Positions 41,758 through 62,717 of a DNA stretch of 64,000 nt are shown in pieces; the stretch's first letter is position 1, and every line of letters begins with the position of its first letter. The notes below the pieces were generated by a model that had not been told where the DNA came from, searched no databases, and saw only the letters and a program-made list of their open reading frames with translations. This stretch comes from Malus domestica (taxonomy: Eukaryota; Streptophyta; Magnoliopsida; Rosales; Rosaceae). The translations under genes were made by a program, and so were the position numbers. The DNA lies in NCBI RefSeq assembly GCF_042453785.1, contig NC_091674.1, positions 26,143,001 through 26,207,000 of the forward strand. The letters are read 5' to 3'.

Positions 41758-41762
41758 TAGGA

Positions 41763-42275
41763 TGTTTGTACCATACTTGACCAATCCCGAAACTACCGAG
41801 CACCGGCCAACGCTATACTGTCAAGGACCCAGAAGAGTTCCCCTCCGACCAGGAGGCCAATCACTACTCGACACGTGTCAAGATTAGAAGCCAATCAGAG
41901 CGCAGCACGTGTCAACATCAAGAACCAATCATAACATGACACATGTCAATGTGACAAAGCTACAAGTTTTTCTATAAATAGGGGTCATTCCCCCACAATA
42001 TGGCCGAATGCCATTTTGTGTGAAATCATTCACAAGAACTCACTAAATTGAGAGCTTGATCCTTTGTACTTGTGTAAGCCCTCCACTACTAATAAGAACT
42101 CCTCTACTCCGTGGACGTAGCCAATCTGGGTGAACCACGTACATCCTGTGTTTGCTTCTCTGTCTCTATTCATTTACGTACTTATCCTCACTAGTGACCG
42201 AAGCAACCAAGCGAAGGTCATAAAACCTGACACTTTCTGTTGTACCAAAGTCTTCGCTGATTTTGTGCATCAACA
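41763..42275 (+). repeat. 5' LTR of the Tat element
   Basis: TGTTTGTACC...GCATCAACA. The U3 has three ~34-bp repeats with CACGTGTCA/CACATGTCA (from 41871, 41905 and 41939) alternating with CCAATCA boxes, and TATAAATA at 41973-41980. Confidence 0.95.
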
Positions 42276-42277
42276 TT

Positions 42278-42293
42278 TGGCGCCGTCTGTGGG
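42278..42293 (+). promoter_or_regulatory. Primer-binding site of the Tat element
   Basis: TGGCGCCGTCTGTGGG, two bases after the LTR end, the position and form usual in plant gypsy elements, where a tRNA 3' end primes minus-strand synthesis. The specific tRNA was not identified. Confidence 0.85.
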
Positions 42294-42382
42294 AAACGAC
42301 ACTTATTCCTACTCTCTTCAGCTGTGTCAAGCTGGTTTCTATCATTCGTACACTTTCTTTTGACCAGGCATCCCTCTCCAAC

Positions 42383-45007
42383 ATGGGAAGCGAAGGAAGC
42401 CACAGCACACAGAATGACACCCCCCTTGCACATAGTGCGAAACAACGAAAGAAGGAAGGAAAACGAGTTCTTCTTCAAGCTAAAGTCGATGAGTTGGAAG
42501 CTCAGAACAACAAGATAGCAATGAGGAATGAGGTCCTCCAGGAGCAATATGAGAAGCTCTTCGAGACACTCCACGAAGCTAGGCAAGCTCAGACACGCGA
42601 GCTTGTTGCCCCCGTGGAAGTCAACCATCAACTGGGTGCCCTCCAACATGGAGGGTCACATGCATTCGACATAGATATCCCTGATAGGGAACAGATTACC
42701 CTTCGACTTGATAATCAACATGAGGCTTCTCTTAACCCAGTTGCTTCGACCCGAACCATGAGAAGTGGAGGGAGACACCTCTTTGCTGAAGGGGCAGAAG
42801 GATCGAAAGCCGTCTTTCGCGATTGTCGGGATTTCCTGAAGCAACGTCGAGAGAATTCCATCCATATAAGCTCAAAGATCAATGACCCAAGGATTTCTGA
42901 GAGACTCGGTCCCCTGCCACGGCCCGAGCCGGCCACCAATTTGGGGAAGGGGCAACAAGTCCTAGAGAGACATGAGGGTACAGGGGACTCAGAGGTGTTC
43001 CGACAGACATACCCTGGAAGCCAGTACAACGAGTCCAGGGAAAAATCACATGCCCTTGATCAAACCTTCCTAATTCCAAGAGGAGATGGAGATTTACGAA
43101 AGAAAGCTCCAGTGGCACATAACTCCGCTCAGGACCCCCTTGTCCTACAACTTCTTGAGGAAGTAAACAAGTTGAAGGCTGAACGACAGGCTGAAATACC
43201 TGACTGGAACCAACCCAGGCCTGGCCCTCTTACAAGGAGGATCCTCAACACCCCCCTTCAAGCAAAGACAAAGCAAAAGCTTGGCTTGCAACTTTATACT
43301 GGAAAAGAGGACCCGATTGAGCACCTTAACCTCTTTGAGTCCACCATGGCATACCGAATGCACACCGACGAAGAGCGATGTCTTCTCTTCCCCTCCACCC
43401 TCTCTGGCGGAGCTCTAAATTGGTATTGTCGTCTTACACCTGAGACGGTAGACTCATTTGAGGAATTGAGGAAACTATTTGTTTCCCAACACATTTTCCA
43501 AACCGATCGCTTGCACTCTGCAGATGACCTGTACACTATCCGCCAGAAGCCAGATGAGTCATTACGTATGTATGCTGGCCGCTTCAGCCATGAATACTCC
43601 CGGTGTGCCGAGGCAGACGACAAGACTGCCCTCAAAGCCTTCACGGCAGGCCTACGTGATTGTTTCTTTAAATACATGATCAATGCCAATACTTGGAAGA
43701 CTTACTCTGAGGTGATGGCGCAGGCTTATAACCATGCCTCCGCCGAGGCAAAGACATATCAGGAGAAACCCCCTACAACCATCCTTTATCAACAAGTGGG
43801 AGGTGGAAGCCAGACTCACCTAAATGAGAAGACCTCGACTTTCCAAACAGCAGTGGCACCTCCCCATGCCTTGCATAATGCTTCGCCGAATCAACAGACA
43901 TATCAATTTCAAGGCAAGAGGAAGGATTTCCATCCTCACCACTCTCATTTCAGTAAAAAGAGTAAGGGACACTATCCCGATAACCAAGGGTATCGCCACA
44001 ATAACGCTCGCCCCCAGGCAGTCAATGCAGTGGGTCAAACCCGCGTCAAGATACCCCCTACCCCAAGGTATGAGACATACACGCCCTTGAATGCCACATG
44101 CGCGGCCATTTACCCCAGCATAGCTCACCTGATACCAAAGCCAAAGCCGAGGCACCCAGATTACACGCCCCCGAATAACGCGGGCATGTTTTGTTGCTAC
44201 CATGAGCATAACAGCCATGATAGCGAGAAATGTATCATCCTCCGTGATCGTATTGAAGCTTTGGCACGAGAAGGAAAAATTGATCAATTCCTCCTTCACC
44301 CTCAAAGGGATAACCGTAACCAACGCCAGGTGAATGTCATATATTCCATAAGCGGCGGCACACCCATATCTGAATCTTCCAATAGGGCCATGAAAAACAG
44401 TGAACGAATTCTGAGGCCTGGTCACCAAGTGTTTCACGTGGAAGACATCAGGGGAGGGAAGTATCAAAAGCCTAACTGGGATCCGATATGTTTCTACCCT
44501 GAGGAAGAAAGAGGCATCATCTACCCTCATAACGACCCATTGATCGTGGAGGCTCACATAGCCAACTTTGATGTTCGACGAATCCTCGTAGACACAGGGG
44601 CTTCGGTCAATATCATGTTTGCCGAAGCTTTCAGGGCACTCAGTGTAGCTGAACACTTGCTCGATCGCTCGATTTCTCCTCTGATAAGCTTCTCCGGTGA
44701 TATCGTGCAACCCTTAGGGAGCATACATTTACCCTTTACTATTGGTACAGGCCCTTACACGGCTACCATTACCACTAACTTCCTAGTGGTTGACTGCCCA
44801 ACGGCATACAATGTCATCTTTGGGCGCACAGGCATCAATGATCTCAAGGCTATGGTATCCACGCATATGCTGTTGATGAAATTTCCAACCCCCCATGGCA
44901 ACGGCTACATCAGAGGAGATCAGCTTAGTGCACGATCATGTTACAACACTTCAGTTAAGCAACAACACTTGCCCGGACCCAAGGAAACCCTGTCTGTACA
45001 TGACTAA
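42383..45007 (+). CDS. Tat element gag-protease polyprotein
   Basis: 874 residues from ATG 42383 (chosen because the frame upstream has no Met outside the leader) to TAA 45005-45007. An N-terminal coiled-coil segment (LEAQNNKIAMRNEVLQEQYE) leads to the retrotransposon gag domain at residues ~280-420 (LGLQLYTGKEDPIEHLNLFE, GALNWYCRLTPETVDSFEEL, FTAGLRDCFFKYMI). A knuckle-like FCCYHEHNSHDSEKC follows, then an aspartic protease with DTGAS at 44591-44605 (residues 737-741). Gag forms the particle and packages RNA; the protease matures the polyproteins. The ORF is intact. The stop is in frame with pol. Confidence 0.94.
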   Translation: MGSEGSHSTQNDTPLAHSAKQRKKEGKRVLLQAKVDELEAQNNKIAMRNEVLQEQYEKLFETLHEARQAQTRELVAPVEVNHQLGALQHGGSHAFDIDIPDREQITLRLDNQHEASLNPVASTRTMRSGGRHLFAEGAEGSKAVFRDCRDFLKQRRENSIHISSKINDPRISERLGPLPRPEPATNLGKGQQVLERHEGTGDSEVFRQTYPGSQYNESREKSHALDQTFLIPRGDGDLRKKAPVAHNSAQDPLVLQLLEEVNKLKAERQAEIPDWNQPRPGPLTRRILNTPLQAKTKQKLGLQLYTGKEDPIEHLNLFESTMAYRMHTDEERCLLFPSTLSGGALNWYCRLTPETVDSFEELRKLFVSQHIFQTDRLHSADDLYTIRQKPDESLRMYAGRFSHEYSRCAEADDKTALKAFTAGLRDCFFKYMINANTWKTYSEVMAQAYNHASAEAKTYQEKPPTTILYQQVGGGSQTHLNEKTSTFQTAVAPPHALHNASPNQQTYQFQGKRKDFHPHHSHFSKKSKGHYPDNQGYRHNNARPQAVNAVGQTRVKIPPTPRYETYTPLNATCAAIYPSIAHLIPKPKPRHPDYTPPNNAGMFCCYHEHNSHDSEKCIILRDRIEALAREGKIDQFLLHPQRDNRNQRQVNVIYSISGGTPISESSNRAMKNSERILRPGHQVFHVEDIRGGKYQKPNWDPICFYPEEERGIIYPHNDPLIVEAHIANFDVRRILVDTGASVNIMFAEAFRALSVAEHLLDRSISPLISFSGDIVQPLGSIHLPFTIGTGPYTATITTNFLVVDCPTAYNVIFGRTGINDLKAMVSTHMLLMKFPTPHGNGYIRGDQLSARSCYNTSVKQQHLPGPKETLSVHD

Positions 45008-48000
45008 GTCACAAAGACCAGCCTAGATGAAGCGAACTTGGATCTTCCTGATAGCAACAATCAACCCGATGATCCTCGAGATGACTCTTTCACCCAGCAA
45101 GCCCAACCTGCTGAAGAGTTGGAGAAGGTACCTATCTCAAGAGATTATCCAGATCGCATGGTGAAGATTGGCACCACATTGTCACCACCCCTTCGGTTAG
45201 CATTGATATCTTTTTTGAAAGAGAACACTGAAGTCTTCGCCTGGTCATACGAGGACATGCCAGGCATCTCTCCCGATGTCATCTGTCATCGTTTGAGTAT
45301 TGACCCCAAGATCAAGCCGGTGAGACAGAAGCGAAGATCTTATGACGCTGAACGATACGAGGCAATGAAAGCAGAAGTTGAAAAACTCAAAGGCATAGGC
45401 TTTGTCCGCGAAGTCAATTACCCGACATGGGTAGCAAATGTGGTCCTTGTTAAGAAAAATCCGACCAAAGAAAGTCTTTTGCTTCAAAAGGTCTTGTGGA
45501 GAATGTGTGTTGACTACACCGACCTAAACAAAGGGTGTCCGAAAGATAGCTTCCCTCTTCCTCTTATTGACAGACTTATAGACTCTACGGCCGGGTGTGA
45601 ACTCCTGAGCTTCATGGATGCTTACTCAGGATACAACCAAATCCTCATGAACCCTTCGGATCAAGAACACACAGCCTTCACTACCGACAGAGGACTATAC
45701 TGCTATAAAGTCATGCCTTTCGGCCTAAAGAATGCAGGAGCGACTTATCAAAGACTAGTCAACTCAATGTTCGCCGAGCAGATTGGGAAGAGCATGGAAG
45801 TTTACGTTGATGATATGTTAGTCAAGAGCAAACATGCTGACCAACACATCACCAACCTATCTGAAACTTTCACTATTTTGAAGAGGTATCGAATGAGGTT
45901 AAACCCCAACAAATGTGCCTTCGGCGTAGGCTCTGGCAAATTCTTAGGTTTCATGATTAGCCAACGAGGCATTGAAGCTAATCCCGAGAAGATCAAAGCA
46001 ATCCTCGACATGAAGGAACCGGTAACTTCAAAGGACATCCAGAGCCTTACTGGCAAGGTGGCAGCCTTAACCAGGTTCATTTCTAAGGCCACAGACAAAT
46101 GTGCTCCCTTTTTTAAAGCACTTAAGGGAAGTAGGAAGTACATTACATGGACTGATGAATGTGCCGAGGCATTCAAAAACCTCAAGGAGTACATGAGTAA
46201 AGCCCCTCTACTCTCCAAGCCCGAGGTAGGAGACATTCTCATTATCTACCTATCGGTATCAGCTTCAGCCGTAAGTTCCGTTCTCATTCGAAAGGATGGG
46301 AATATTGAGCGACCTGTCTACTACGCTAGCAAAGCCTTACAAGATGCGGAGACACGGTACTCTAACATTGAGAAATTGGCTCTGGCATTGGTCATGTCTG
46401 CTCGAAAACTCCGCCCTTACTTCCAAGCGCACTCCATCATCGTGCTTACCAATTATCCTCTTCGACAGATACTCCAAAGTCCTGACACTTCAGGGCGAAT
46501 GATCAAATGGGCAATAGCGTTGGGTGAGTTTGACATCTCCTACCAACCAAAGCCAGCTGAGAAGGGCCAAGCAGTGGCAGACTTCATTGCCGACTTCACA
46601 TATCCGGTTGACATTGCTTCTACACCTGAAGCAGTGGCTTCATTACCCCCAGAAGCTCAGAAGATAGAACCAACAACCCCAGCATGGAGTCTGTATGTTG
46701 ATGGCTCATCCAACCAACAGGGCTGTGGAGCGGGACTAGTCTTGACTACACCCGACAAAGTAGCAATGGAGTATGCTCTTCGTTTCAAATTCAAGGCATC
46801 AAATAATGAGGCCGAGTATGAAGCCCTTCTAGCAGGATTACGTTTGGCCAAACACCTCGGGGTTAAACAAATTGATATTTTCAGTGACTCCCAATTGGTG
46901 GTCAACCAGGTTACCAACAACTTTGATGCTAAGGACAGCTCCATGGCAGCATATCTTGCGCAAACACAACTTTTGCTCAAGCACTTCCACTACCAGATCA
47001 CCCAAGTTCCTCGAGCGGCAAACAGTCATGCAGACGCCCTGGCTCGCCTCGCCTCGGCTGTGGAAGACAAGATTGGAAGAAAAATTCATGTCGAACTGTT
47101 GGCAACACCAAGCACCATGGCCGCAGAAGTATGCAACTTACAACAGGGGGATAGTTGGATCACCCCGATCTATAATTTCCTTGCTCATGGCATCCTCCCA
47201 AATGATAAAGTCCAGGCTAAGCAAATTCGATACAAGTCTACCCGCTACCTGATCATCAATGATCAACTCTATAAGCGAGGTTTTAGCCTGCCATACTTAA
47301 GGTGTCTTACGCCTGCCGAGGCGGAAATCGTCCTTCGGGAAATACATGAGGGAGTCTGTGGAGATCATGCTGGATCTCGGTCCCTAGCACACAAGACTTT
47401 TCGCCAAGGATATTACTGGCCAACACTCCACCAGGATGCCATCAAAGTATCCCGCTCATGTGACAAATGTCAACGATATGCGGCTATTCCTCATTCCCCT
47501 CCAGAGCCTCTTACTCCTATGATCAGCCCTTGGCCCTTCGCCCAGTGGGGACTTGATTTGATCGGCCCAATGCCGGCAGGGAAGGGCAAAGTCTGTTACG
47601 CAGTCGTTGCAGTGGACTACTTCACAAAGTGGGCCGAAGTAGAACCCTTGGCAACCATTACTGAGGCAAAGATAGAAGACTTCGTGTGGAAGAACATCCT
47701 TTGTAGATTCGGCATTCCCAATGCGATAGTCACTGACAATGGGCGACAGTTTGACAACAAGAAGTTCAGGTTGTTCTGCTCTAAGTTCAACATCAGCTTA
47801 TGCTTTGCCTCTCCAGCTCATCCCCAGTCTAATGGACAAGTTGAGGCAATCAACAAAATAATCAAGCGCACTTTGAAAACCAGCTTGGACAAAGCTAAAG
47901 GCTGTTGGCCAGAATTTGTACCCCAAGTTCTTTGGTCATATCGCACTTCATATCGGACTTCAACAGGAGAAACTCCATTCTCACTTGCCTTTGGCACAGA

Positions 48001-48391
48001 GGCGGTTGTCCCTGTTGAGCTCGAGCAAGCAACATTCCGAGTCCAGAACTACATTCAAAGTGAAAATGACAAACAACTCACCCTCAACTTGGATTTAGTC
48101 GAGGAACACAGAAACCAAGCTCACTTGAGGAATGTCACCTACAAGCAGCGCATCTCCAACTATTATGACTCTAGGGTCAAGCCTCGTTCTTTCAAAATAG
48201 GAGACTGGGTCTTAAAGAAAAGATTACTCTGCGACAGAGTCCCGAGTGAAGGCACACTTAGTCCAAACTGGGATGGACCGTATGAAGTCATTGGCATCAG
48301 TCGCCCTGGCTCTTACACACTTAGAAGCTCCGATGGCAAGACCCTTGGCCATCCATGGAACGCTGATCACTTGAAGTACTACTATAAATAG
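45008..48391 (+). CDS. Tat element pol: RT, RNase H, archaeal-type RNase H, integrase
   Basis: Open from the base after the gag stop, in the same frame, to TAG 48389-48391 (1,127 codons); there is no Met near its start, so it should be made as a gag-pol fusion. RT has FMDAYSGYNQILMNPSDQEH and YVDD at 45803-45814. RNase H has YYASKALQDAETRYSNIEKL. The second RNase H has WSLYVDGSSNQQGCGAGLVL and FSDSQLVVNQV. Integrase has the HHCC finger (HAGSRSLAHKTFR...CDKCQ) and the DDE core (GLDLIGPM, VTDNGRQFDNKKF, SNGQVEAINKI). No frameshift is seen and all catalytic motifs are present, so the protein is likely active if translated past the stop. Confidence 0.94.
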   Translation, partial: VTKTSLDEANLDLPDSNNQPDDPRDDSFTQQAQPAEELEKVPISRDYPDRMVKIGTTLSPPLRLALISFLKENTEVFAWSYEDMPGISPDVICHRLSIDPKIKPVRQKRRSYDAERYEAMKAEVEKLKGIGFVREVNYPTWVANVVLVKKNPTKESLLLQKVLWRMCVDYTDLNKGCPKDSFPLPLIDRLIDSTAGCELLSFMDAYSGYNQILMNPSDQEHTAFTTDRGLYCYKVMPFGLKNAGATYQRLVNSMFAEQIGKSMEVYVDDMLVKSKHADQHITNLSETFTILKRYRMRLNPNKCAFGVGSGKFLGFMISQRGIEANPEKIKAILDMKEPVTSKDIQSLTGKVAALTRFISKATDKCAPFFKALKGSRKYITWTDECAEAFKNLKEYMSKAPLLSKPEVGDILIIYLSVSASAVSSVLIRKDGNIERPVYYASKALQDAETRYSNIEKLALALVMSARKLRPYFQAHSIIVLTNYPLRQILQSPDTSGRMIKWAIALGEFDISYQPKPAEKGQAVADFIADFTYPVDIASTPEAVASLPPEAQKIEPTTPAWSLYVDGSSNQQGCGAGLVLTTPDKVAMEYALRFKFKASNNEAEYEALLAGLRLAKHLGVKQIDIFSDSQLVVNQVTNNFDAKDSSMAAYLAQTQLLLKHFHYQITQVPRAANSHADALARLASAVEDKIGRKIHVELLATPSTMAAEVCNLQQGDSWITPIYNFLAHGILPNDKVQAKQIRYKSTRYLIINDQLYKRGFSLPYLRCLTPAEAEIVLREIHEGVCGDHAGSRSLAHKTFRQGYYWPTLHQDAIKVSRSCDKCQRYAAIPHSPPEPLTPMISPWPFAQWGLDLIGPMPAGKGKVCYAVVAVDYFTKWAEVEPLATITEAKIEDFVWKNILCRFGIPNAIVTDNGRQFDNKKFRLFCSKFNISLCFASPAHPQSNGQVEAINKIIKRTLKTSLDKAKGCWPEFVPQVLWSYRTSYRTSTGETPFSLAFGTEAVVPVELEQATFRVQNYIQSENDKQLTLNLDLVEEHRNQAHLRNVTYKQRISNYYDSRVKPRSFKIGDWVLKKRLLCDRVPSEGTLSPNWDGPYEVIGISRPGSYTLRSSDGKTLGHPWNADHLKYYYK

Positions 48392-48539
48392 ACTCACGAT
48401 GTACAAGTGTTGAGCTATAGCCGTTCGGCATCCTATGTAATGAAGGCCATTTGGCAATGAATTCAATAAAGAGGTAATTGAGCTATATCCGTCTTCCACA
48501 GTCACTACAAAACAAGCAAATGAAGACCGTGTCAAGCGC

Positions 48540-48580
<41 letters not shown>

Positions 48581-49040
48581 AGCTCCATCCAAAAAGCTTC
48601 ACCCGAAAAGCTTCACCTCCAAAGCTTCACCATCAAAGCTTCACCTAAAAAGCTTCACCCAAAAAGCTTCACCCGAAAAGCTTCACCTCCAACGCTTCAC
48701 CCACAAAGCTTCACCCACAAAGCTTCACTTAAAAAAGCTTCACCTACAAAGCTTCATCTACAAAGCTTCATCTACAAAGCTTCACCATCAAAGCTTCACC
48801 TAAAAAGCTTCACCCAAAAAGCTTCACCCGAAAAGCTTCACCTCCAACGCTTCACCCACAAAGCTTCACCTAAAAAGCTTCACCTAAAAAGCTTCACCCA
48901 CAAAGCTTCACCCAAAAAAAAAAACTTCACCCGAAAAGCTTCACTTAAAAAAGTTTCACCTACAAAGCTTCATCTACAAAGCTTCACCATTAAAGCTTCA
49001 CCATCAAAGCTTCAACACCAAAGCTTCAACACAAAACCTT
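48392..49040 (+). repeat. Poly(A) tract and AAGCTTCACC minisatellite in the Tat 3' region
   Basis: About 150 bases after pol comes an uninterrupted run of ~39 A's (48541-48579). Then about 40 degenerate copies of a 10-11-base unit (AAGCTTCACC with CCA/CAA/CCG variants) run to about 49030. No spacers of constant length, so it is a simple tandem array. Confidence 0.9.
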
Positions 49041-49609
49041 GCTCCAAATAAACAAATTTTGTTCACAAAACCCAAGATGCCCTTGAACTTGTACAAAAAC
49101 ACTTGGGTAAACATAAACATTTTTTGTTTTACACCCACAAGGGCCCAAAATTTTCCTTCTTATTTATTCACTTATATATGTTCCCAAACATATTATAATA
49201 GATCCAACAACAAGCCAAAGTCCCAAGTTTCATAATGGACAAAAGTACAAGCAATTCATCAATAATGAAGGTGCTACAAAACTTGGAATCTGCCCCAAAA
49301 TAGAAATCCAACCCAAGAGACTTTTTCTCTCTCTCCCTCTTCCGCCTCCTTTCATCTATCAAATTTCTGCAACCTCTGCTCTTCTCCAATGGAGCTGAAT
49401 TTTGGACACCCTATAGTTCTTGAGCATATGAACAACTTTCAAGAAGGAACCATTTCTGTTTGAGCGACGGAAATTAAAGTGTTGAAGCTCCAAACATGAT
49501 AGTCGGCTTTTTGCAGATTTCGAAGCTGTTGTGATGTTTCGAAGATCTGGAAATATTTAACCGTTAGTTCATCCTGAATTTTTGATATGTTATGAAAGAG
49601 TCGATGATG
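49041..49609. other. Tat 3' region, non-coding
   Basis: No ORF with recognisable content; a C/T-rich stretch at 49320-49390. Leads into the 181-bp array. Confidence 0.5.
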
Positions 49610-50160
49610 AACAACTTCAATGAAGAAAGCATACCGATCTGAACAAGAGAAAATGGAGTTTCGCAACTCACAACAAATCTGACGGGTTGACAGACAAATA
49701 ATAACCAGTCATTCATCATACCTGAGTTTCTTGAGTTATAAAGCTCCGAGGGATCTCAAATTTGGATATGTTGTAGTTCACAAGCTGAGGAACAACTTCA
49801 ATAAAGAAAGCATACCGATCTGAACAAGAGAAAATGGAGTTTCGAAGCTCACAACAAATCTGACGGTTTGACAGAAAAATAATAACCAGTCATTCATCAT
49901 ACCTGAGTTTCTTGAGTTATACAGCTCCGAGGGATCTCAAATTTGGATATGTTGTAGTTCACAAGCTGAGGAACAACTTCAATGAAGAAAGCATGCTGAT
50001 CTGAGCAAGAGAAAATAGAGTTTCAAAGCTCACAACAAATCTGACGGGTTGACAGACAAATGATAAACAGTCACTCATCATACCTGGATTTCTGGAGTTG
50101 TACTGCTCCGATGGCTCTCCAATTTGGATATGTTGTAGTTAAGGAATTAACGAACAACTT
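49610..50160. repeat. 181-bp tandem repeat array
   Basis: The landmark CAAATCTGACGG occurs at period 181 (GACGG at 49681, 49862 and 50043), with about three copies differing at scattered sites. Contained in the Tat 3' region. Confidence 0.9.
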
Positions 50161-50863
50161 TCATGAAGACAACTTTGTGATTCGACCTACAGATGATGGT
50201 GTTATGTTGAAAAACAATTCCGGTTGTTAGGGGAAATGAAAAACAATTCCACCAAAGAAACATCATTATGATGTTTCATCATTATGGTGTTTTCATCATT
50301 ATGATGCTTTCATCATTGTGATGCTTCCATCATTGTGATGCTTCCATTATGATGTTAATGCACCAACGGTTACACCTTCTGCAATTCCACTTATTCGGGC
50401 CTAGCAACCTTCATAAACAAAATCTATGAAGAAAAAGTCCGGGGCTACCACTTAGAAAACAAAAGAATGAAGTTTTGGTACTTACGACATGGACTATTAG
50501 CAAGACACCTCATTCGTCAACTCCCTCGACTAGAGACTTGGGGGACTCCCACCATATGCTACTACGCCTTGGTACTCAAAAGTTCGTGACTACTCAGTGA
50601 CTTGGATTTTTCAAGTCTCCAACCGAGAAGTTTTCCTCACTCGGGAAATTAAGGGAACACTACCTCAGACTACATGCTTCACTCACAAAGCTTCAACAAT
50701 ACAGGTTTCAACAAAAGCAAAAATTCAAAGAACTTTATGAAGAAGGCTTTGGTGTATTTAACACAATATGTTGAAATGAAGCAAAGCTTATTTATTAATA
50801 TTTTCGATAAGCCACAAATATGTACATATACATGAGTCAAAATAAACAAACAAAAGGGAGCCT
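50161..50863. other. Tat 3' region between arrays and the antisense ORF
   Basis: Includes a short array of ATCATTATGATG/TTTC-type units at 50263-50350. From 50590 the sequence (GTGACTTGGATTTTTCAAGT...) recurs at 57628 in the second, rearranged copy. Probably carries the 3' end of the antisense transcript. Confidence 0.5.
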
Positions 50864-51544
50864 TCACAAAGGTTGCTTAGGGGAAGTCTCAGCAGTCGGT
50901 AGAGCCCCAGAAAGAGAAAGCACCGGAGGGTGGTTATCCGGAGCCTCAGTACTTGACAAAACCCCAGAAGGAGGAGGCATTGGAGGTTCATCATTTGAAG
51001 CTTCATTACCAGGTACAGCCCCAGAGGACGAAGGCAATAAATGCCTTTGGAACAAACCCACAAACCGCTGATGATCAAGTAAAACCTTACCATCAGATTC
51101 CTTCATCTGGTCAAGCTTCCTCTTCATGTTTGTAGCATAGTCATGGGCGAGCCGGTGCAACTGCTTATTCTCATGCTTGAGCCCTCTAATCTCCTGTTTG
51201 AGACTCATCACTTCAGCAGCCAATGATTCAACTTGGCGGGTTCTAGCAAATAGGCGTTGGGCCATATTAGACACAGAACCTGCACACTGAACACTAAGAG
51301 CCAGAGAGTCCTTAACAGCCAACTCATCAGACCGTTTGGAAAGTAGTCTGTTATCTTTGGGAGTGAGAAGGTTCCTGGCCACCACTGCAGCGGTCATATC
51401 ATTCTTCATCACAGAATCCCCAACGGTAAGAGGACCAGTAGGGGATATGAAGGATGGGCGCCATATGTTGTCTGGAGAAGGCGTGGCTGTCTCTTCTCCA
51501 AGGTTCAAGTCAAAACGACGGTCGGAGGGTCCAGACATTTTCAA
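50864..51544 (-). CDS. Antisense protein of the Tat element: EAR-like motif and coiled coil
   Basis: 226 codons on the strand opposite to gag-pol; the second copy suggests the true start is MSGPSDRRF at 51538 (224 residues). N-terminus: FDLNL at 51500-51514, the core of the plant EAR repression motif. Middle: conserved LTPKDNRLLSKRSDELAVKD, then a leucine-rich coiled coil (VESLAAEVMSLKQEIRGLKH...LHRLAHDY) at about residues 105-150, resembling bZIP-type dimerisation. C-terminus: three degenerate Pro/Ser/Glu repeats (SGAVPGNE, SGVLSSTEAP, SGALPTAET). No retrotransposon enzyme domain. The copy at 57904-58578 is intact with an identical middle. Tat elements are known to carry extra ORFs in the 3' region, some antisense. 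Function unknown; a repressor-type regulator or a domesticated-gene-derived protein are possibilities. Confidence 0.82.
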   Translation of the reverse strand: MKMSGPSDRRFDLNLGEETATPSPDNIWRPSFISPTGPLTVGDSVMKNDMTAAVVARNLLTPKDNRLLSKRSDELAVKDSLALSVQCAGSVSNMAQRLFARTRQVESLAAEVMSLKQEIRGLKHENKQLHRLAHDYATNMKRKLDQMKESDGKVLLDHQRFVGLFQRHLLPSSSGAVPGNEASNDEPPMPPPSGVLSSTEAPDNHPPVLSLSGALPTAETSPKQPL

Positions 51545-53714
51545 ATGTGTTGAAGAAGGAAGAGGTCAGACAAATCAAGATCTTAGAAGTGCAAGAAATG
51601 AGCTTCTACTGGTAGAGATTCAAGTGTGCTGTGGAACTTAATGTCAGCCTCTATAAAAATCTGCACTCGACGGAGCTTCAGAAATCGAAGAGGCGTTTGC
51701 TTTCTCAAAAGCTGGGCTGCTCAGAGACCACGAGGGCCGATCTCAGAAATCGAAGAGGCGTTTGCTTTCTCAAAAGATGGGCTGCTCAGAGACCACGAAG
51801 GCTGATCTCAGAAATCGAAGAAGCACCTGCTTTTTCAGCCTCGTCAGCACCTGTCACATGCACACTCAGCTTTGCGGAAATTACGGGCAATCTGTCGAAG
51901 ATTTCTGGTGAAGTAGAAAGCACGTGAATCTTACTGTTCAATCACCGCTCTCCATATGCACCATCAACACCTCGGGTACCACATATAACTTTGTCAAAGA
52001 TCTCTGACAAAGTTTAGGCACGAGAATTTCGAAGTTCCAGCTACCCTACTATTACCCATAAGGGTAAAGGAACAGCACCACTGCTTGACAACTGGAAAGT
52101 CCCTATGTGTGTCGACCTCCGTGTTTTGCGGCAAGACAGGTTGGCAAGAACGTCCAACCTTTACTCACATTCGAGAAAAGACTCCCAACATAATTACTTT
52201 CTCAAAAACCGGAGTAGCACCGCTTTCCGAATCTCGAGAGTCAGATCCTCGACGGGATTGCTTGTTCGAAAACCGAAGAGGCACAACTCTCAGAACTTCG
52301 AGAGCCAGATTTCCTTAGATAAAGCTTGTCTGTAATCTTCACACGTAACATCAGCTTTCCAGATACCACATACCACTTTTTCAAAGTGCTCTGACAAAAT
52401 TAAAACACGTGAAGCTGGCAGCTCCCACTACATTGATGTGACCAAGAAGGGTAAAAGAATAGCATTACTACTTGTTATTGGGAAATCCCTATATACATTG
52501 ACCTCCCTCCTCAACGGACAGGCAAACCTGCAAAAATGCTCAACCCTTTCTCGCATTCGAAGAGGCACCCTCAACATAACCTCTCGAAATACTCAGCTTT
52601 ATTTCCCCCCGATAATACCTCAGCAAATAAGCCACACCAAGAACAAGAGTATCTCATATCATCAGGGTCGAAAGCAAGAGTATCCTATATCATGCTTTCT
52701 CCCTGTCTTTGTCTTTGTCCTTGTCCACACCTGCAGGACAAGGAGAAAGAGAGCAGTCAGTCGGAACCTGAAATCAAACCTCCAATTTGGAACTGACTGC
52801 CTGGAGCCTTTGCCTGGTTGCTTACTTAGCATTGCTCTCGAGTACTCATCCTCAACTGCTGTCAAGGTCACGAATTCCACCGGCAAATACCTCATGACAG
52901 TTGATCAGATATTGGCTCTTTACACTGGAGCTGCCAAGCGTGGATGAGTCACTATGAAGGAATGTTCTGAAGGACCATTTAAATGCAAAGGTTGCACACC
53001 ACTTCTGCCATGCAAAAGATTGAAGCAGAAGGTTCAACGGTGAGCTGAAACAGATCACTACAGCACGACACCTTTCCATACCACATTCATTATTCCGTCA
53101 ACAGCAAAAGTATCCCATATCATCAAGGTCGAACGTACTCTAGATTTGATGGACTTGTTTTGACCCTCAAATTTTTGAATCGGCCTTATACTCTGAAGGG
53201 CACCAGAAAACCCTCCAGCACAGTTCAAGAATAAGCCTGTGGAAAGTTACTTCTTCAAAAGCAAAAGTATCTCATATCATCTCTTATCCATTTGCTTCTC
53301 CTTATCCTGGCAGTTGAATGAGAGACAAGGAGAATGAGAACAATCAACCGGAAGCCGACGTCAAACCTCTGATCCTGGGTTGCTTACTTGGAAGTTTGAC
53401 TGCTTACCTTGTCTGTCACCTCTTTCGGCAGATCTCCTAGCTCGGCGACTTGGGGGACTCCTACTATAGGGTTCGTATCACACTTGACTAAGCCCGAAAC
53501 TACAACTAAGCTTCAAGTGAAATTGATACATTACCTTGTGCGTCAACATCAGCTAAGTACACCATTCCCGGATGGAGGAAAGGTACTTCCAGAGAAGGGC
53601 AGATGAAGATCAGACCACACTTCGGTACTTAGAAGTTTCGTGATTACTCAAGGGATTGGATCTTGCAAGTCCCCAACCGAGGAGTTTCCCTCACTCGGGA
53701 ACTTAGGGGAGCAC
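51545..53714. other. Tat 3' region between antisense ORF and 3' LTR
   Basis: Contains two 65-75-base repeats (CAGAAATCGAAGAGGCGTTT) at 51680-51830, CTATAAAAA at 51652, and stretches repeated in the second copy: CTCCGAATCTCGAGAGCCAG type, CTTCTCCTTATC, and TCTAGATTTGATGGACTTGT. Plus-strand ORFs here (for example 52438-52947) are not conserved as proteins in the second copy. The polypurine stretch AGGGGAGCAC directly precedes the 3' LTR. Confidence 0.55.
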
Positions 53715-54227
53715 TGTTTGTACCATACTTGACCAATCCCGAAACTACCGAGCACCGGCCAACGCTATACTGTCAAGGACCCAGAAGAGTTCCCCTCCGA
53801 CCAGGAGGCCAATCACTACTCGACACGTGTCAAGATTAGAAGCCAATCAGAGCGCAGCACGTGTCAACATCAAGAACCAATCATAACATGACACATGTCA
53901 ATGTGACAAAGCTACAAGTTTTTCTATAAATAGGGGTCATTCCCCCACAATATGGCCGAATGCCATTTTGTGTGAAATCATTCACAAGAACTCACTAAAT
54001 TGAGAGCTTGATCCTTTGTACTTGTGTAAGCCCTCCACTACTAATAAGAACTCCTCTACTCCGTGGACGTAGCCAATCTGGGTGAACCACGTACATCCTG
54101 TGTTTGCTTCTCTGTCTCTATTCATTTACGTACTTATCCTCACTAGTGACCGAAGCAACCAAGCGAAGGTCATAAAACCTGACACTTTCTGTTGTACCAA
54201 AGTCTTCGCTGATTTTGTGCATCAACA
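53715..54227 (+). repeat. 3' LTR of the Tat element
   Basis: 513 bp, no difference from the 5' LTR seen; TATAAATA at 53925-53932; followed by the target copy TAGGA. Confidence 0.95.
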
Positions 54228-54232
54228 TAGGA

Positions 54233-56614: not shown

Positions 56615-57625
56615 AAGGAATTCATCGACCATAGGATTTTAGAGAAGAAAGGAGTACGAGTAGCATATATCCAAGCTATAAAGGATATGTATGAAGGAGC
56701 AAAGACTGCCGTAAGAACTCATGAAGGACAAACCGAAAGCTTTCCCATAACTGTAGGATTACATCAAGGCTCATCCTTAAGTCCTTACCTTTTTGCGTTG
56801 GTAATGGATGAGTTAACAGGACATATTCAAGATGATATTCCTTGGTGTATGCTTTTCGCAGACGATATAGTGTTGATAGATGAAACTCAGGAAGGGGTAA
56901 ATGCAAAGCTTAACCTTTGGAGAGAAGTGTTGGAATCTAAAGGTCTTCACCTAAGCCGATCAAAGACAGAATATATGGAGTGCAAGTTCAGTGCAAATGG
57001 AGGCCAAAACGAGTTAGGGGTGAGGATCGGAGATCAAGAAATACCAAAGAGCGACCGTTTTCGTTACCTAGGATCTATCTTGCAAAAGAACGGAGAATTA
57101 GATGGAGATCTCAACCATAGAATACAAGCTGGATGGATGAAGTGGAAGAGTGCATCCGGCGTGTTGTGTGACCGCCGTATGCCACTGAAGCTCAAGGGAA
57201 AATTTTATAGGACGGCAATAAGGCCGGCGATGCTGTATGGCACAGAATGTTGGGCGGTGAAACATCAACACGTACACAAAATGGGTGTAGCGGAGATGAG
57301 GATGCTTCGTTGGATGTGTGGGCACACGAGAAAGGATAAGATTAGGAATGAGGATATCCGGGGTAAAGTAGGAGTAGCCGAAATTGAAGGAAAGATGAGA
57401 GAAAATCGGTTACGGTGGTTTGGACATGTGCAAAGAAGGCCTACTGACGCTCCGATTAGAAGATGCGACTATGGGACAGAGGTTCAGGGCCGAAGGGGTA
57501 GAGGAAGACCTAGGAAAACTTTGGAAGAGACTCTAAGAAAAGACTTAGAGTACTTGGATCTAACGAAGGACATGACACAGGATCGAGCACAATGGCGTTC
57601 TAAGATTCATATAGCCGATCCCACT
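56615..57625 (+). mobile_element. RTE-type LINE fragment with reverse transcriptase C-terminal half
   Basis: Coding similarity begins near 56640 ([20 protein letters not shown]) and the frame stays open to 57629. RT motifs: [40 protein letters not shown] and [10 protein letters not shown]. The C-terminal region reads [20 protein letters not shown], then [19 protein letters not shown] and [20 protein letters not shown]. Endonuclease and the RT start are missing (5' truncation). The usual 3' end with (TTG)n is absent: at about 57615-57622 the sequence changes to Tat 3' region. Confidence 0.88.
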
Positions 57626-57903
57626 CAGTGACTTGGATTTTCCAAGTCTCCAACCGAGAAGTTTTCCTCACTCGGGAAATTAAGGGAACACTACCCCAAC
57701 CTACATGCTCCACTCAGAAAGCTTCAACATACAAGCTTCAACATACAAGCTTCAACAAAAGAAAATTCAAAGAACTTAGCGAAGAAGGCTTTGGTGTATT
57801 TAACACAATACGTTGAAATGAAGGAAAGCTTATTTATTGATATTCCCGATAAGCTACAAATATGTACATATACATGAGTCAAAATAAACACACGAGGGAG
57901 CCT

Positions 57904-58578
57904 TCACAAAGGTTGCTTAGGAGAAGTCTCAGCAGTCGGTAGAGCCCCAGAAAGAGAAGGCACCGGAGGGGGATCATTTGGAGCCTCAGTACTGGACAGA
58001 ACCCTAGAAGGAGGAGGCATCAGAGGTTGATCATTTGGAGCTTCATTACGCGGTACAGCCCCAGAAGACGAAGGCAATAAATGCCTTTGGAACAAACCCA
58101 CAAATCTCTGATGATCAAGTAAAACCTGACCATCAGTTTCCTTCATCTGGTCAAGCTTCCTCTTCATGTTTGTAGCATAGTCATGTGCGAGCCGGTGCAA
58201 CTGTTTATTCTCATGCTTGAGCCCTCTAATCTCCTGTTTGAGACTCATCACTTCAGCCGCCAATGATTCAACTTGGCGGGTTCGAGCAAATAGGCGTTGG
58301 GCCATATTAGACACAGAACCTGCACACTGAACACTGAGAGCCAGCGAATCCTTAACAGCTAACTCATCAGACCGTTTGGAAAGTAGTCTGTTATCTTTGG
58401 GAGTGAGAAGGTTCCTGGCCACCACCGCAGCGGTCATATCATTCTTCATCACGGAATCCCCAACGGTAAGAGGACCAGTAGGGGAGACGAAGGATGGGCG
58501 CCATATGTTGTCTGGAGAAGGCGGGGCTGCCTCTTCAACAAGGTTCAAGTCAAAACGACGGTCGGAGGGGCCAGACAT
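57904..58578 (-). CDS. Second copy of the Tat antisense protein
   Basis: 224 codons from MSGPSDRRF, intact. Compared with 50864-51538, the middle (from SPTGPLTVGD to KRKLDQMKE, about 115 residues) is identical although about ten bases differ. The N-terminal 30 and C-terminal 70 residues differ at around 15 positions (for example EETATPSP versus EEAAPPSP; PGNEASNDEPP versus PRNEAPNDQPL). FDLNL is kept at 58540-58554. The element around it is wrecked, yet this ORF is not. Confidence 0.8.
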   Translation of the reverse strand: MSGPSDRRFDLNLVEEAAPPSPDNIWRPSFVSPTGPLTVGDSVMKNDMTAAVVARNLLTPKDNRLLSKRSDELAVKDSLALSVQCAGSVSNMAQRLFARTRQVESLAAEVMSLKQEIRGLKHENKQLHRLAHDYATNMKRKLDQMKETDGQVLLDHQRFVGLFQRHLLPSSSGAVPRNEAPNDQPLMPPPSRVLSSTEAPNDPPPVPSLSGALPTAETSPKQPL

Positions 58579-58739
58579 TTTTCAAAGGTGTTGAAGAGAG
58601 AAGAGGTCGGACAAATCAAGATCTTAGAAGTGCAAGAATGAAGCTTCTACTGGTGGAGATTCAAGTGTGCTTTGGAACTTAATGCCAGCCCCTATAAAAA
58701 TCTGCACTCGACGGAGCTTCAAAAATCGAAGAGGCGCCT

Positions 58740-58960
58740 GCTCAGAAATCGAAGAGGCGTTTGCTTTCTCAAAAGTTGGGCTACTTAGAGATCACGAGGG
58801 TTGATCTCAGAAATCGAAGAGGTGTTTGCTTTCTCAAAAGTTGGGCTGCCCAAAGACCACGAAGGCCGATCTCAGAAATCGAAGAGGCGCTCGCTTTCTC
58901 AAAAGCTGGGCTCCCCAGAGACCACGAGGGCCGATCTCAGAAATCGAAGAGGCACCTACT
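58740..58960. repeat. 65-bp tandem repeat
   Basis: AGAAATCGAAGAGG recurs at 58744, 58809, 58874 and 58939. The 65-base period shifts frame each time, so several overlapping ORFs are artefacts. Confidence 0.92.
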
Positions 58961-60770
58961 TTTCCAACCTTGTCAGCACCTGTCACACGCACACTCAGCT
59001 TTGCGGAAATTATGGGCATTCTGTCAAAGACTTCTGGGGAAGTAGAAAACACATGAATCTTACTGTTCAATCACCCATTTCCCACACGCAACAATAGCTC
59101 ATGGGTACCACAGATAACTTTGCCAAAGTTCTCTGCCAAAGTTGAGCACGTGAAGCTTGCAGCTCCCACTACATCGCTCTGACCAAGAAGGGTAAAAGAA
59201 TAGCAAAGAAACAGCACTAACAAAGTTTAGACCCATAAATTTTGAAGGTCTAGCTACCATATTATTACCCACAAGGGTAAAGGAACAGTACCACTGCTGG
59301 ATAATTGGAAAGTCCCTGTGTGTCAACCTCTGTGCTTCGTGGCAAGGTAGACTAGCAAACATGCCCAACCTTTACTCACATTCGAGAAAACACTCCCAAT
59401 AAGATTGCTTGCTCCAAAATCGAAGATGCACCGTCCTCCGAATCTAAAGAGCCAGACTCCCAACATGACTATTTTCTTAAAAATCGAAGAGAGGGTAAAG
59501 GAACAGTACCATTGCTGGATAATTGGAAAGTCCCTGTGTGTCAACCTCTGTGCTTCGTGGCAAGGTAGACTAGCAAACATGCCCAACCTTTACTCACATT
59601 CGAGAAAACACTCCCAACAAGATTGCTTGCTCCAAAATCAAAGAGGCACCGCTCTCCGAATCTCGAGAGCCAGACTCCCAACATGATTACTTTCTCAAAA
59701 ATCGAAGAGACATTGCTCCCCGAATCTCGAGAGCCAGACCCCCAACATGATTGCTTTCTCAAAAATCGATGAGGCATCGTTCTCCGAATCAATCGAAGAG
59801 GCGCTCGCTTTCTCAAAAGCTGGGCTGCTCATAGACCACGAGGGTCGATCTCAGAAATCAAAGAGGCACCTACTTTTCTAGCCTTGTCAGCACCTGTCAC
59901 ACACACACTCAGCTTTGCAGAAATTATGGGCATTCTGTCGAAGACTTCTGGTGAAGTAGAAAGCACATGAATCTTACTGTTCAATCACTCACTTCCCACA
60001 CGCAACAATAACTCATGGGTACCACAGATAACTTTGCCAAAATTCTCTGCCAAAGTTGAGCACGTGAAGCTTGCAGCTCCCACTACATCGCTCTGACCAA
60101 GAAAGGTAAAAGAATAGCAAAGAAACAGCACTAACAAAGTTTAGACACATAAATTTTGAAGGTCTAGTTACCATATTATTACCCACAAGGGTAAAGGAAC
60201 AGTACCACTGCTGGATAATTGGAAAGTCCCTGTGTGTCAACCTCTGTGCTTCGTGGCAAGGTAGAGTAGCAAACATGCCCAACCTTTACTCACATTCGAG
60301 AAAACACTCCCAACAAGATTGCTTGCTCCAAAATCGAAGAGGCACCGTCCTCTGAATCTAAAGAGCCAGACTCCCAACATGACTACTTTCTCAAAATCGA
60401 AGAGAGGGTAAAGGAACAGTACCATTGCTGGATAATTGGAAAGTCCCTGTGTGTCAACCTTTGTGCTTCGTGGCAAGGTAGACTAGCAAACATGCCCAAC
60501 CTTTACTCACATTCGAGACAACACTCCCAACAAGATTGCTTGCTCCAAAATCGAAGAGGCACCGCCCTCCGAATCTCGAGAGCCAGACTCCCAACATGAT
60601 TACTTCCTCAAAAATCGAAGAGACTGCTCTCCGAATCTCGAGAGTCAGACCCCCAGCATGATTGCTTTCTCAAAAATCGAAGAGGCATCGTTCTCCGAAT
60701 CTCGAGAGCCATATACCACAGACCACTTTTTCAAAGTGCTCTGACAGAGTTAAAACATGTGAAACTGGCA
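58960..60770. repeat. 914-bp segmental tandem duplication with inner repeats
   Basis: GTTGAGCACGTGAAGCTTGC starts at 59141 and again at 60055, and the flanking sequence repeats with few changes. Inside, a ~200-base block starting GGGTAAAGGAACAGTACCA occurs four times (about 59275, 59494, 60189 and 60406). No conserved coding frame. Confidence 0.85.
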
Positions 60771-62107
60771 GCTCCCACTACTGTGCTATGACCAAGCAGG
60801 GTAAAGGAATAGCATTACTACTTGTTGTTAGGGAGACTCCTATATATGTCGACCTCCATCCCCAACGGACAGGCAGACTTGCAAAAATGCTCAACCCTTC
60901 ATCATATCTGAGAGGGCACTCCCAACGAAGCCTTTCGAAATATTCAGCTTTCTTTCCCCCCGATAATACCTCTGCAAACAAGCTATACTAGAGCAAGAAT
61001 ATCTCATATCATCAGGGTTAAAAGCAAGAGTATCCCATATCATGCTTTTTCCCTGTCTTTTCCTTTGGCCTTGTTTTTACCTGCAAGACAAGGAGAAAGA
61101 GAGCAATCAGTCAGCACTTGGAATCAAGCTTCCAGCCAGGAACTGACTGCCTGGAACCCCTTACCTGATTACTTACCTGGCATTGCTCTCGAGTACTCAT
61201 CTTCAACATCTTATGTTTCCAGGGAAGATTCCGCATCTGCTTGAGGAACAGATAGGGCAAGTGCGAAGGATACAAGGAAGCATGTGGAGACAAGCGTAAC
61301 AGCACACGTGCCGATACATCCATTACTCTGTCAAAAGCGAAAGTATCCCATATCAGCAGGGTGGAACGTACTCTAGATTTGATGGACTTGTTTTGACCCT
61401 CAAATTCTTCAGTCGGCCTTATACTCTGGAGGAAACCAAAAAACCCTCCAGCTCAGTTCAAGAATAAGCCTGTGGAACGTTACTTCTTCAAAAGCAAAAG
61501 TATCTCATATCATCTCTTCTCATTTTTCTTCTCTTTATCCTTCATGCTGCTGCAAGATGGGGAGAAGGTGAACAATCAGTCGGAGCTCTGATTGCTTACC
61601 TTGTCTGTCACCTCTTTCAGCAGACCCCCTAGCTCGGCGACTTGGGGGACTCCTACTACATGGTTTGTATCGCGCTTGACCAAGCCTGAAACTACAAGTA
61701 AGCTTCAAGTGAAATTGATACATTACCTTGTGCATCTCCACCAGTTAAAGATACCACCCCTGGATGGAGGAAGAGTATTTCCAGAGAAGATGCCACATCT
61801 ACCTATGAGACAGATAAGGCAAGTCAAGACGACACCACACTCCGATACTTAGAAGTTTCGTGATTACGAGATCATTCTCCCACAATATTTCCTAATGTCA
61901 TTTGTACTAAATCATTCACTTGTACTCACTAAAGGAGAGCTTGAACCTATGTACTTGTGTAAACCCTTCACAATTAATGAGAACTCTTCTATTCCGTGGA
62001 CGTAGCCAATCTGGGTGAACCACGTACATCTTGTGTTTGCTTTCCTATCTCTATCCATTTATATACTTATCCACACTAATGACCGGAGCAATCTAGCGAA
62101 GATCACA
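60771..62107. other. End of the Tat-derived segment with LTR remnant
   Basis: Matches the 52390-53640 part of the intact element. The partial LTR (61867-62107) keeps the U5 landmark GTGGACGTAGCCAATCTGGG but lacks U3 and promoter. Confidence 0.65.
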
Positions 62108-62717
62108 AAAAGCGACCGTTTTCGCTACCTAGGATCTATCTTGCAAGAGAACGGAGAATTAGATGGAGATCTCAACCATAGAATACGAGCTGGATGGAAA
62201 GAGTGCATCCGGCGTGTTGTGTGACCGTCGTAGGCCACTGAAGCTCAAGGGAAAATTTTATAGGACGGCAATAAGGCCAGCGATGTTGTATGGCACAGAA
62301 TGTTGGGTGGTGAAGCATCAACACGTACACAAAATGGGTGTAGCGGAGATGAGGATGCTTCGTGGGATGTGTGGGCACATGAGAAAGGATAAGATTGGGA
62401 ATGAGGATATCCGAGGTAAAGTAGGAGTAGCCGAAATTGTAGGAAAGATGAGAGAAAATCGGCTCCGGTGATTTGGACATGTGCAAAGAAGGCCGTCTGA
62501 CGCTCCGGTTCGAAGATGTGACTACGGGACAGAGGTTCAGGGCCGAAGGGGTAGAGGAAGACCTAGGAAAACTTTGGAAGAGACTCTAAGAAAAGACTTA
62601 GAGTACTTGGATCTAACGGAGGACATCACAAAATCGAGCGCAATGGCGTTCTAGGATTCATATAGCCGACCCCACTTAGTGGGAAAAGGCTTTGTTGTTG
62701 TTGTTGTTGTTGTTGTA
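62108..62717 (+). mobile_element. RTE-type LINE 3' fragment with (TTG)n tail
   Basis: Begins abruptly at AGCGACCGTTTTCGCTACCT (start of the [10 protein letters not shown] segment) and matches 57047-57620 closely. It then continues through the family 3' end CACTTAGTGGGAAAAGGCTT to (TTG)n at 62693-62717. Stops are present (TGA for Trp at about 62468) and an in-frame Met-Lys-Trp stretch is lost near 62197, so it is non-coding. Confidence 0.88.

Follow-up and report, generated by a model that had tools for sequence, protein, structure and literature searches.

A putative antisense accessory gene of Tat/Retand retrotransposons in apple and pear, conserved at the protein level along LTR lineages and captured by an RTE-like element

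A characteristic of Retand retrotransposons is an extended region of about 2.9–6.6 kb between pol and the 3' long terminal repeat (LTR), which holds an open reading frame (ORF) in antisense orientation (PMC11963269). According to the same source, every cluster of recently active Retand elements has antisense ORFs, TRP28 is present in 97%, and 72 of 104 Retand antisense ORFs contain known domains (PMC11963269). The function of the antisense genes of plant retrotransposons is an open question. The present analysis concerns an antisense ORF, here termed aORF1, in a 64,000-nucleotide stretch of the Malus domestica genome (assembly GCF_042453785.1, contig NC_091674.1, positions 26,143,001–26,207,000 of the forward strand; hereafter the window, within which positions are counted). 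The window contains two copies of aORF1, one in an LTR retrotransposon (element A) and the other in a composite of RTE-like and Retand sequence. To judge from sequence comparison, Tat/Retand LTR retrotransposons of apple and pear carry aORF1 as an accessory gene in antisense orientation, and a probability of roughly 0.62 is assigned to the reading that it acts as a protein, in a regulatory, non-enzymatic role.

In element A, aORF1 occupies positions 50864–51538 on the minus strand and comprises 224 codons from its ATG, with an N-terminal FDLNL at residues 9–13, a conserved core and a Pro/Ser-rich tail. The copy within the composite (57904–58578, minus strand) is likewise open over 224 codons. 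The original prediction, made from the letters of the window alone, had claimed two open antisense frames, and both are open; its start at 51544 in element A corresponds to a longer reading (50864–51544, 226 codons from a TTG), and the ATG at 51538 is the preferable start codon. Counted from the ATG, 38 of 675 bases and 33 of 224 codons differ between the two copies, the latter comprising 18 synonymous and 15 replacement codons. The silent-only centre that had been proposed is borne out, as codons 32–147 contain 10 base differences and no replacement, and the replacements, estimated earlier at about 15, number exactly 15, all of them outside this stretch at codons 14–31 (4) and 148–207 (11). 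The remaining five frames of each copy contain 4–27 stops. Searches of aORF1 against Pfam returned no family at cut-off and no match to PF04195, in agreement with the view that the ORF is something other than gag, pol or env, and a search of PDB sequences gave no lead.

Selection on aORF1 was assessed by the NG86 ratio of nonsynonymous to synonymous substitution rates (dN/dS) in three groups of copies, namely A (the LTR element), C (the RTE composite) and B (23 older copies, L049–L071); L047 and L048, which align only partially, were excluded from the B allele counts. Lineages A and C are separated by a dS of 0.157, and their dN/dS is 0.19 over the whole ORF, 0.059 in the core and 0.44 at the ends, where the core (codons 26–174) was delimited after the A–C differences had been seen and the whole-ORF figures are independent of these limits. 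The median dN/dS between A and the 23 B copies is 0.357 (0.276–0.465), the value within B is 0.554, and comparison of A with the single sequence L076, from a divergent apple clade, gives 0.23 (core 0.17) at a dS of 1.1. A dN/dS near 1 or frequent frameshifts had been named at the outset as signs that would speak against selection. On the part of the copies checked, dN/dS is not near 1; with regard to frameshifts, 22 of the 23 older copies have no indel, while 13 carry a stop or an indel and 10 are free of both, which is consistent with decay after insertion.

Singletons among the 23 B copies (134 replacement or stop, 54 silent) served as a yardstick, which is only near-neutral (in the core, 87/43 observed versus 89/33 expected from their own spectrum). 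Relative to this yardstick, replacements are depleted among fixed changes, with 15 replacement and 23 silent changes between A and C (p=2.9e-4) and 18 and 21 between A and B (p=0.0045). The depletion is seen in the core for A–C (3/14, p=1.3e-4), A–B (5/13, p=0.003) and C–B (4/8, p=0.028), and at the ends it is significant for A–C alone (p=0.042). With B as outgroup, the changes assigned to the A lineage comprise 6 replacement and 16 silent ones (one-sided p=2.4e-5). Neutral simulations with 38 changes, run 4000 times under each of three spectra (B-singleton, uniform and A–C), never yielded a replacement-codon share of 15/33 or lower and never reached 10 consecutive synonymous codons, so that the pattern is indeed unlike that of a neutral ORF. 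Purifying selection is thus upheld for the LTR lineages from which the present copies descend, and what has been conserved along them is the amino-acid sequence and not just the underlying DNA. aORF1 is a real gene that underwent protein-level selection in these lineages, with a role that we infer.

These data bear directly on two alternative explanations. According to the first, the antisense transcript matters and the protein does not: minus-strand RNA would pair with element RNA and lead to small-RNA silencing, the ORF being incidental. Regulation by antisense RNA has been considered for such genes (PMC7264820), and a promoter-like box may lie upstream of aORF1, but conservation is at the amino-acid level, with second codon positions accounting for 4 of 38 A–C differences versus 58 of 188 singletons and with replacements depleted, and the region 50400–52300 has no Rfam match at E 0.1; this explanation is regarded as very improbable. 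The second attributes the similarity of the ORFs merely to recent copying, without any function. It would explain why the best 150 matches are mostly open and at least 99% identical, as a recent burst gives, yet the core has been conserved across dS values of 0.157 (A–composite) and 1.1 (A–L076) and the simulations reject neutrality. Being at odds with the LTR-lineage data, it is barely credible as a general account, although it may apply to the RTE composite.

The copies and relatives of aORF1 indicate its wider distribution. Protein searches of the apple assembly (651,096,769 bases in 19 contigs) scored, for each query, the top 150 among some 10,000 candidates; of these, 150 of 150 matches to the composite ORF and 147 of 150 matches to the element A ORF are open, shares that are biased upwards because best-scoring candidates alone were counted, and all of the best 150 matches to either aORF1 are at least 99% identical. 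Among protein homologues, the 120 matches listed in one search are all from Malus, and another search returned Malus and Pyrus. The pear data are protein gene models, which include 14 homologues at 50–79% identity with a query coverage of 25% or more and two shorter matches at 85% identity. Several pear models (P0137–P0139, P0141, P0147 and P0150) are labelled 'S ribonuclease' or 'outer dense fiber protein 2-like' and are probably misnamed. The apple sequence L076 (861 bp) represents a second, more divergent aORF1 clade, for which the 150 scored matches show 66–78% identity to the pear query, many of them being open.

The analysis of the protein covered its predicted shape and its N-terminus. 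AlphaFold, applied to 31 sequences, predicted one helix at residues 62–169, mostly at high confidence, and most of the rest at low confidence. DLN is present in 23 of the 24 alignment rows that have the N-terminal end (P0045 differs), the pear form being LDLN; the other 7 of the 31 rows, all from pear, start elsewhere as gene models. L076 has LDLSL at the same five residues. Ethylene-responsive element binding factor-associated amphiphilic repression (EAR) motifs take the form LxLxL or DLNx(x)P (PMC9956375), and the EAR-like motif of aORF1 may be regarded as a lead, not a test. Upstream of the gene, 65-bp tandem repeats (51613–51902, minus strand), located about 75–365 bp before the ATG, represent a possible promoter region. 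Within these coordinates lies TTTATAG (51651–51657, minus strand), a weak TATA-like box 119 bp upstream of the ATG that may mark a core promoter; in A and C alike, its distance from the ATG is 119–120 bp. The sequence TTTTATAA was read by eye at about the same upstream position in 20 of the 24 older loci listed (L048 is not among them), and the surrounding sequence was judged by eye to differ otherwise between loci. aORF1 may thus be transcribed from its own minus-strand promoter.

On the likeliest mechanism, which is put forward tentatively, transcription would start from this minus-strand promoter, with its weak box some 119 bp upstream of the start codon, and would yield a coiled-coil protein with an N-terminal EAR-like (F/L)DL(N/S)x. 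The protein would recruit a TOPLESS-type plant corepressor to the chromatin of the element or of the host, and the recruited corepressor would hold back sense transcription or host responses. A fuller scenario, in which such an EAR-motif coiled coil recruits TOPLESS, was kept after the loss of TRP28 and was captured by an RTE-like element that profits from it, is rather unlikely when all its parts are taken together. A competing explanation gives aORF1 a structural part in the particle or the integration complex, for example as a coiled coil for nuclear import or tethering. The long coiled-coil-like predicted helix would suit such a part, and nuclear entry of the pre-integration complex has been discussed in connection with antisense proteins (PMC7264820). 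However, antisense transcription would make the timing or amount of the protein differ from that of Gag, and the EAR-like motif would be left unexplained; neither point is decisive, and a structural role seems somewhat unlikely.

A number of observations weigh against an antisense gene that acts as a protein in a regulatory role. aORF1 is under less constraint than pol and gag, since its dN/dS in the sister elements is 0.30 (versus L055) and 0.39 (versus L049), compared with 0.134 for pol (A versus L074) and 0.263 for gag (A versus L073), the two yardsticks coming from one pair each, and its tail is weakly constrained (0.45–0.57). The fixed C–B changes (16/12) are not significant over the whole ORF (p=0.19), the C-lineage changes (5/6) give p=0.065 with 5 of the 38 A–C changes unassigned to either lineage, and these counts do not demonstrate selection on the branch that led to the RTE composite. 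The fixed-versus-singleton test itself uses 38 fixed changes and copies chosen by score. With respect to the motif, FDLN is present in 23 of 23 B copies, which is shared descent and not selection, and the strict EAR pattern is met by LDLSL of L076 only, being missed by FDLNLGEE in element A and by LDLNV and LDLNA in pear. A single long helix at a predicted template modelling score (pTM) of 0.34 says little about partners. As for the promoter, a strict TATA[AT]A does not occur close upstream of the gene in A (the only one being at -957) or anywhere in the 1 kb upstream in C, and was found in 1 of 8 older copies scanned.

The relationship between aORF1 and TRP28 requires separate consideration. 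Comarum palustre is a species of the Rosaceae. It appears in a table of PMC11963269, in the main text of which the words Malus, Pyrus, Prunus, apple and Rosaceae are absent. In the window, including the spacer between pol and aORF1, no similarity to TRP28 was found. In two pear models, P0135 and P0144, a part resembling aORF1 precedes a TRP28 match that stays below threshold (E values of 0.001 and 8e-4, respectively), whereas P0136 and P0156 have no TRP28 match; similarity to antisense pol is a further feature of P0135, P0136, P0152 and P0158. In the apple C16 element (L055 and L074), the order is aORF1, TRP28 gene and antisense pol; here aORF1 is a gene separate from TRP28, located on its 3'-LTR side. 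When 99 aORF1 places were compared with 73 listed TRP28 places, at least 2 had a same-strand TRP28 no more than 4 kb away, and for one it lay at a distance of 10.4 kb on the opposite strand. The pol–aORF1 spacer measures 2,473 bp in element A versus about 5.3 kb in the C16 element. Given this shorter spacer and the absence of TRP28 similarity from the window, the A lineage appears to have lost TRP28 and kept aORF1. It is possible, if doubtful, that aORF1 originated from the C-terminal half of a TRP28-type antisense protein, by splitting off or by duplication, which would be compatible with an antisense accessory gene that acts as a protein. Residues 28–64 match a module that follows the TRP28 domain in the apple family L026 (BLASTP E=4e-6, 33% over 66 residues; hhalign probability 71% over 37 columns), whereas no similarity was found to the C-terminal parts of TRP28 proteins in pear relatives of its own sister elements (hhalign probability 0.3%), hmmsearch gave weak matches (best E 0.0011 at a set size of 1000, six others 0.025–11), and the L026 ORF is itself without a homologue at E<=0.001.

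The second copy had been thought to sit in a wrecked element. This view fails, as the copy lies inside a high-copy RTE/Retand composite with target-site duplications. The composite starts with an RTE-like non-LTR body (56633–57631, plus strand; reverse transcriptase ORF at 56687–57631) that is shorter than in the two full-length copies, continues with a captured Retand 3' fragment (57632–62105), which equals the stretch from about 50592 to about LTR position 463 with internal duplications, and finishes with another copy of the RTE 3' end, which bears a (TTG)n tail (62106–62715, plus strand, end approximate). A wrecked LTR element was rejected on finding no gag or pol within about 10 kb to the left or right of three sister copies (tblastn, E 1e-3), and 586-bp repeats that could have passed for LTRs are in fact RTE 3' ends. 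Three other composite copies, two full-length and one 5'-truncated, share this build, with (TTG)n tails (4 of 4 copies inspected) and 14–16-bp duplications in all three (read by eye; one mismatched); in the window copy, no target-site duplication was made out. A 1057-codon open frame is present in 2 of these 3 copies, the third being the truncated one, and Exo_endo_phos and RVT_1 domains were identified in the single copy scanned. We take the composite to be RTE-like on the criteria of domain order and tail. Within the 1.5 kb examined, an RTE end lies beside aORF1 at 11 of 12 loci of the composite ORF type. Genome-wide, patterns spanning the LTR–RTE and RTE–Retand junctions were found, at up to 3 mismatches, in 2,492 and 2,347 places, respectively, and in 0 places for both when the patterns were reversed. 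An RTE-like retrotransposon has therefore captured aORF1 and multiplied it, and the composite most likely moves by RTE machinery, carrying the antisense gene with it, as its build, tails, duplications and junction counts suggest. At 59262–60624, the composite contains repeats of about 217 bp and a duplicated 0.9-kb block, the arrangement of which varies between copies.

Element A (41758–54232, plus strand), delimited by exact sequence comparison, is a young, complete-looking LTR retrotransposon, with two identical 513-bp LTRs (41763–42275 and 53715–54227) bounded by a TAGGA target-site duplication (41758–41762 and 54228–54232); its left-flank pattern has 158 matching places in the genome. A gag-containing ORF (42263–45007, plus strand; 914 codons from a TTG; Retrotrans_gag, PF03732) is followed by a pol ORF of 1117 codons (45038–48391, plus strand) with reverse transcriptase, RNase H, RVT_3 and integrase domains, the matches of RT_RNaseH, RVT_3 and rve lying at residues 371–498, 555–671 and 833–929, respectively. 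We read RVT_3 as the archaeal-type RNase H (aRH). The order RNase H, second (archaeal-type) RNase H and integrase is that of Ogre and Retand (PMC6317226), and the second RNase H-like domain between RNase H and integrase points to the Tat/Retand lineage for element A. The region between pol and the 3' LTR (48391 to 53715) measures 5.3 kb and contains the antisense ORF and tandem arrays. Domain order and layout together support the earlier assignment of element A to Tat, as a Retand-like element. The spacer between pol and aORF1 (48394–50590) carries tandem arrays of 14-bp and 181-bp units at 48520–49087 and 49605–50203, where the sister element has TRP28. Elements with TGTT/AACA ends (PMC5659011) were set aside as candidates, the terminal letters being alike but the elements Copia-like or terminal-repeat retrotransposons in miniature (TRIM). 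HODOR, a 9,716-bp apple repeat (KX869746; PMC13334179), is a candidate for the same family as these elements.

The older copies L049–L071 were also considered as a uniform family devoid of gag and pol, which is ruled out by the content of L049 and L055. L049 has an LTR, a leader and a broken gag, with pol absent from the stretch examined, and L055 has both TRP28 and pol; L069 has a left LTR with no primer site after it. L073 (2888–7501), taken together with L049, represents an LTR element with a primer-site region, a broken gag, no pol in the examined stretch and an open aORF1, possibly a non-autonomous relative. Between element A and its sister elements (L055/L074 and L049/L073, one pair each), dS is uneven, at 0.18 in aORF1, 0.41 in pol and 0.53 in gag. 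The low value in aORF1 and the higher ones in pol and gag suggest that the half containing aORF1 and the LTR was exchanged between lineages by recombination.

Antisense accessory ORFs are a known kind; a TRP28-less antisense protein, its EAR-like motif and the capture by an RTE-like element were not found described in the open-licence literature searched. aORF1 contributes dN/dS evidence, with gag and pol as yardsticks, that an antisense protein is selected for, and it separates one such protein from TRP28 and provides a short, testable motif. If the motif does bind TOPLESS, a selfish element would use the same host hub as some plant-pathogen effectors. The passage of aORF1 to an RTE-like element, which has more than 2,300 junction copies, constitutes a natural experiment on its benefit to the carrier.

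Non-LTR retrotransposons are known to copy extra sequence, as in LINE (long interspersed nuclear element) transduction and chimeric LINEs. The composite resembles these in having extra sequence between its ORF and its 3' end, and differs in that its cargo is an antisense gene with an LTR fragment, closed by a second RTE 3' end. HBZ of human T-cell leukemia virus type 1 (HTLV-1) is antisense-encoded and has a coiled-coil region. aORF1 is likewise predicted to be an antisense-encoded protein of a reverse-transcribing element, a comparison of working and not of descent, since element and host are unrelated and no bZIP family appears among its weak Pfam matches; HBZ is named in PMC11963269. With the EAR-motif repressors, aORF1 is compared for its short, EAR-like N-terminal (F/L)DL(N/S)x, the pear LDLNV resembling the N-terminal LDLNVE(SP) through which wheat Q interacts with TOPLESS (PMC9956375); it differs in that no known DNA-binding domain was found in it and in that its corepressor link is a prediction only. 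The comparison with TOPLESS-binding pathogen effectors (PMC8126959, PMC7446885) likewise concerns the N-terminal motif. A further comparison is with the TRP28 (Transposase_28, PF04195) antisense ORFs of Retand elements, for which, as here, no similarity was found outside such elements and a regulatory role has been proposed (PMC11963269), whereas aORF1 is without a PF04195 match and, in one apple element, has a distinct TRP28 gene as its neighbour. The likeness extends to GENE23 of maize Grande, described as an aORF-3R with its own promoter and a nuclear protein (PMC7264820). The two are compared by description, promoter and nuclear location being properties of GENE23, and they share the antisense position, retention in most copies and a promoter-like upstream sequence, which is putative for aORF1. 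aORF1 thus fits the aORF-3R layout, being antisense, located between pol and the 3' LTR, present in many copies and conserved in the manner of a coding sequence.
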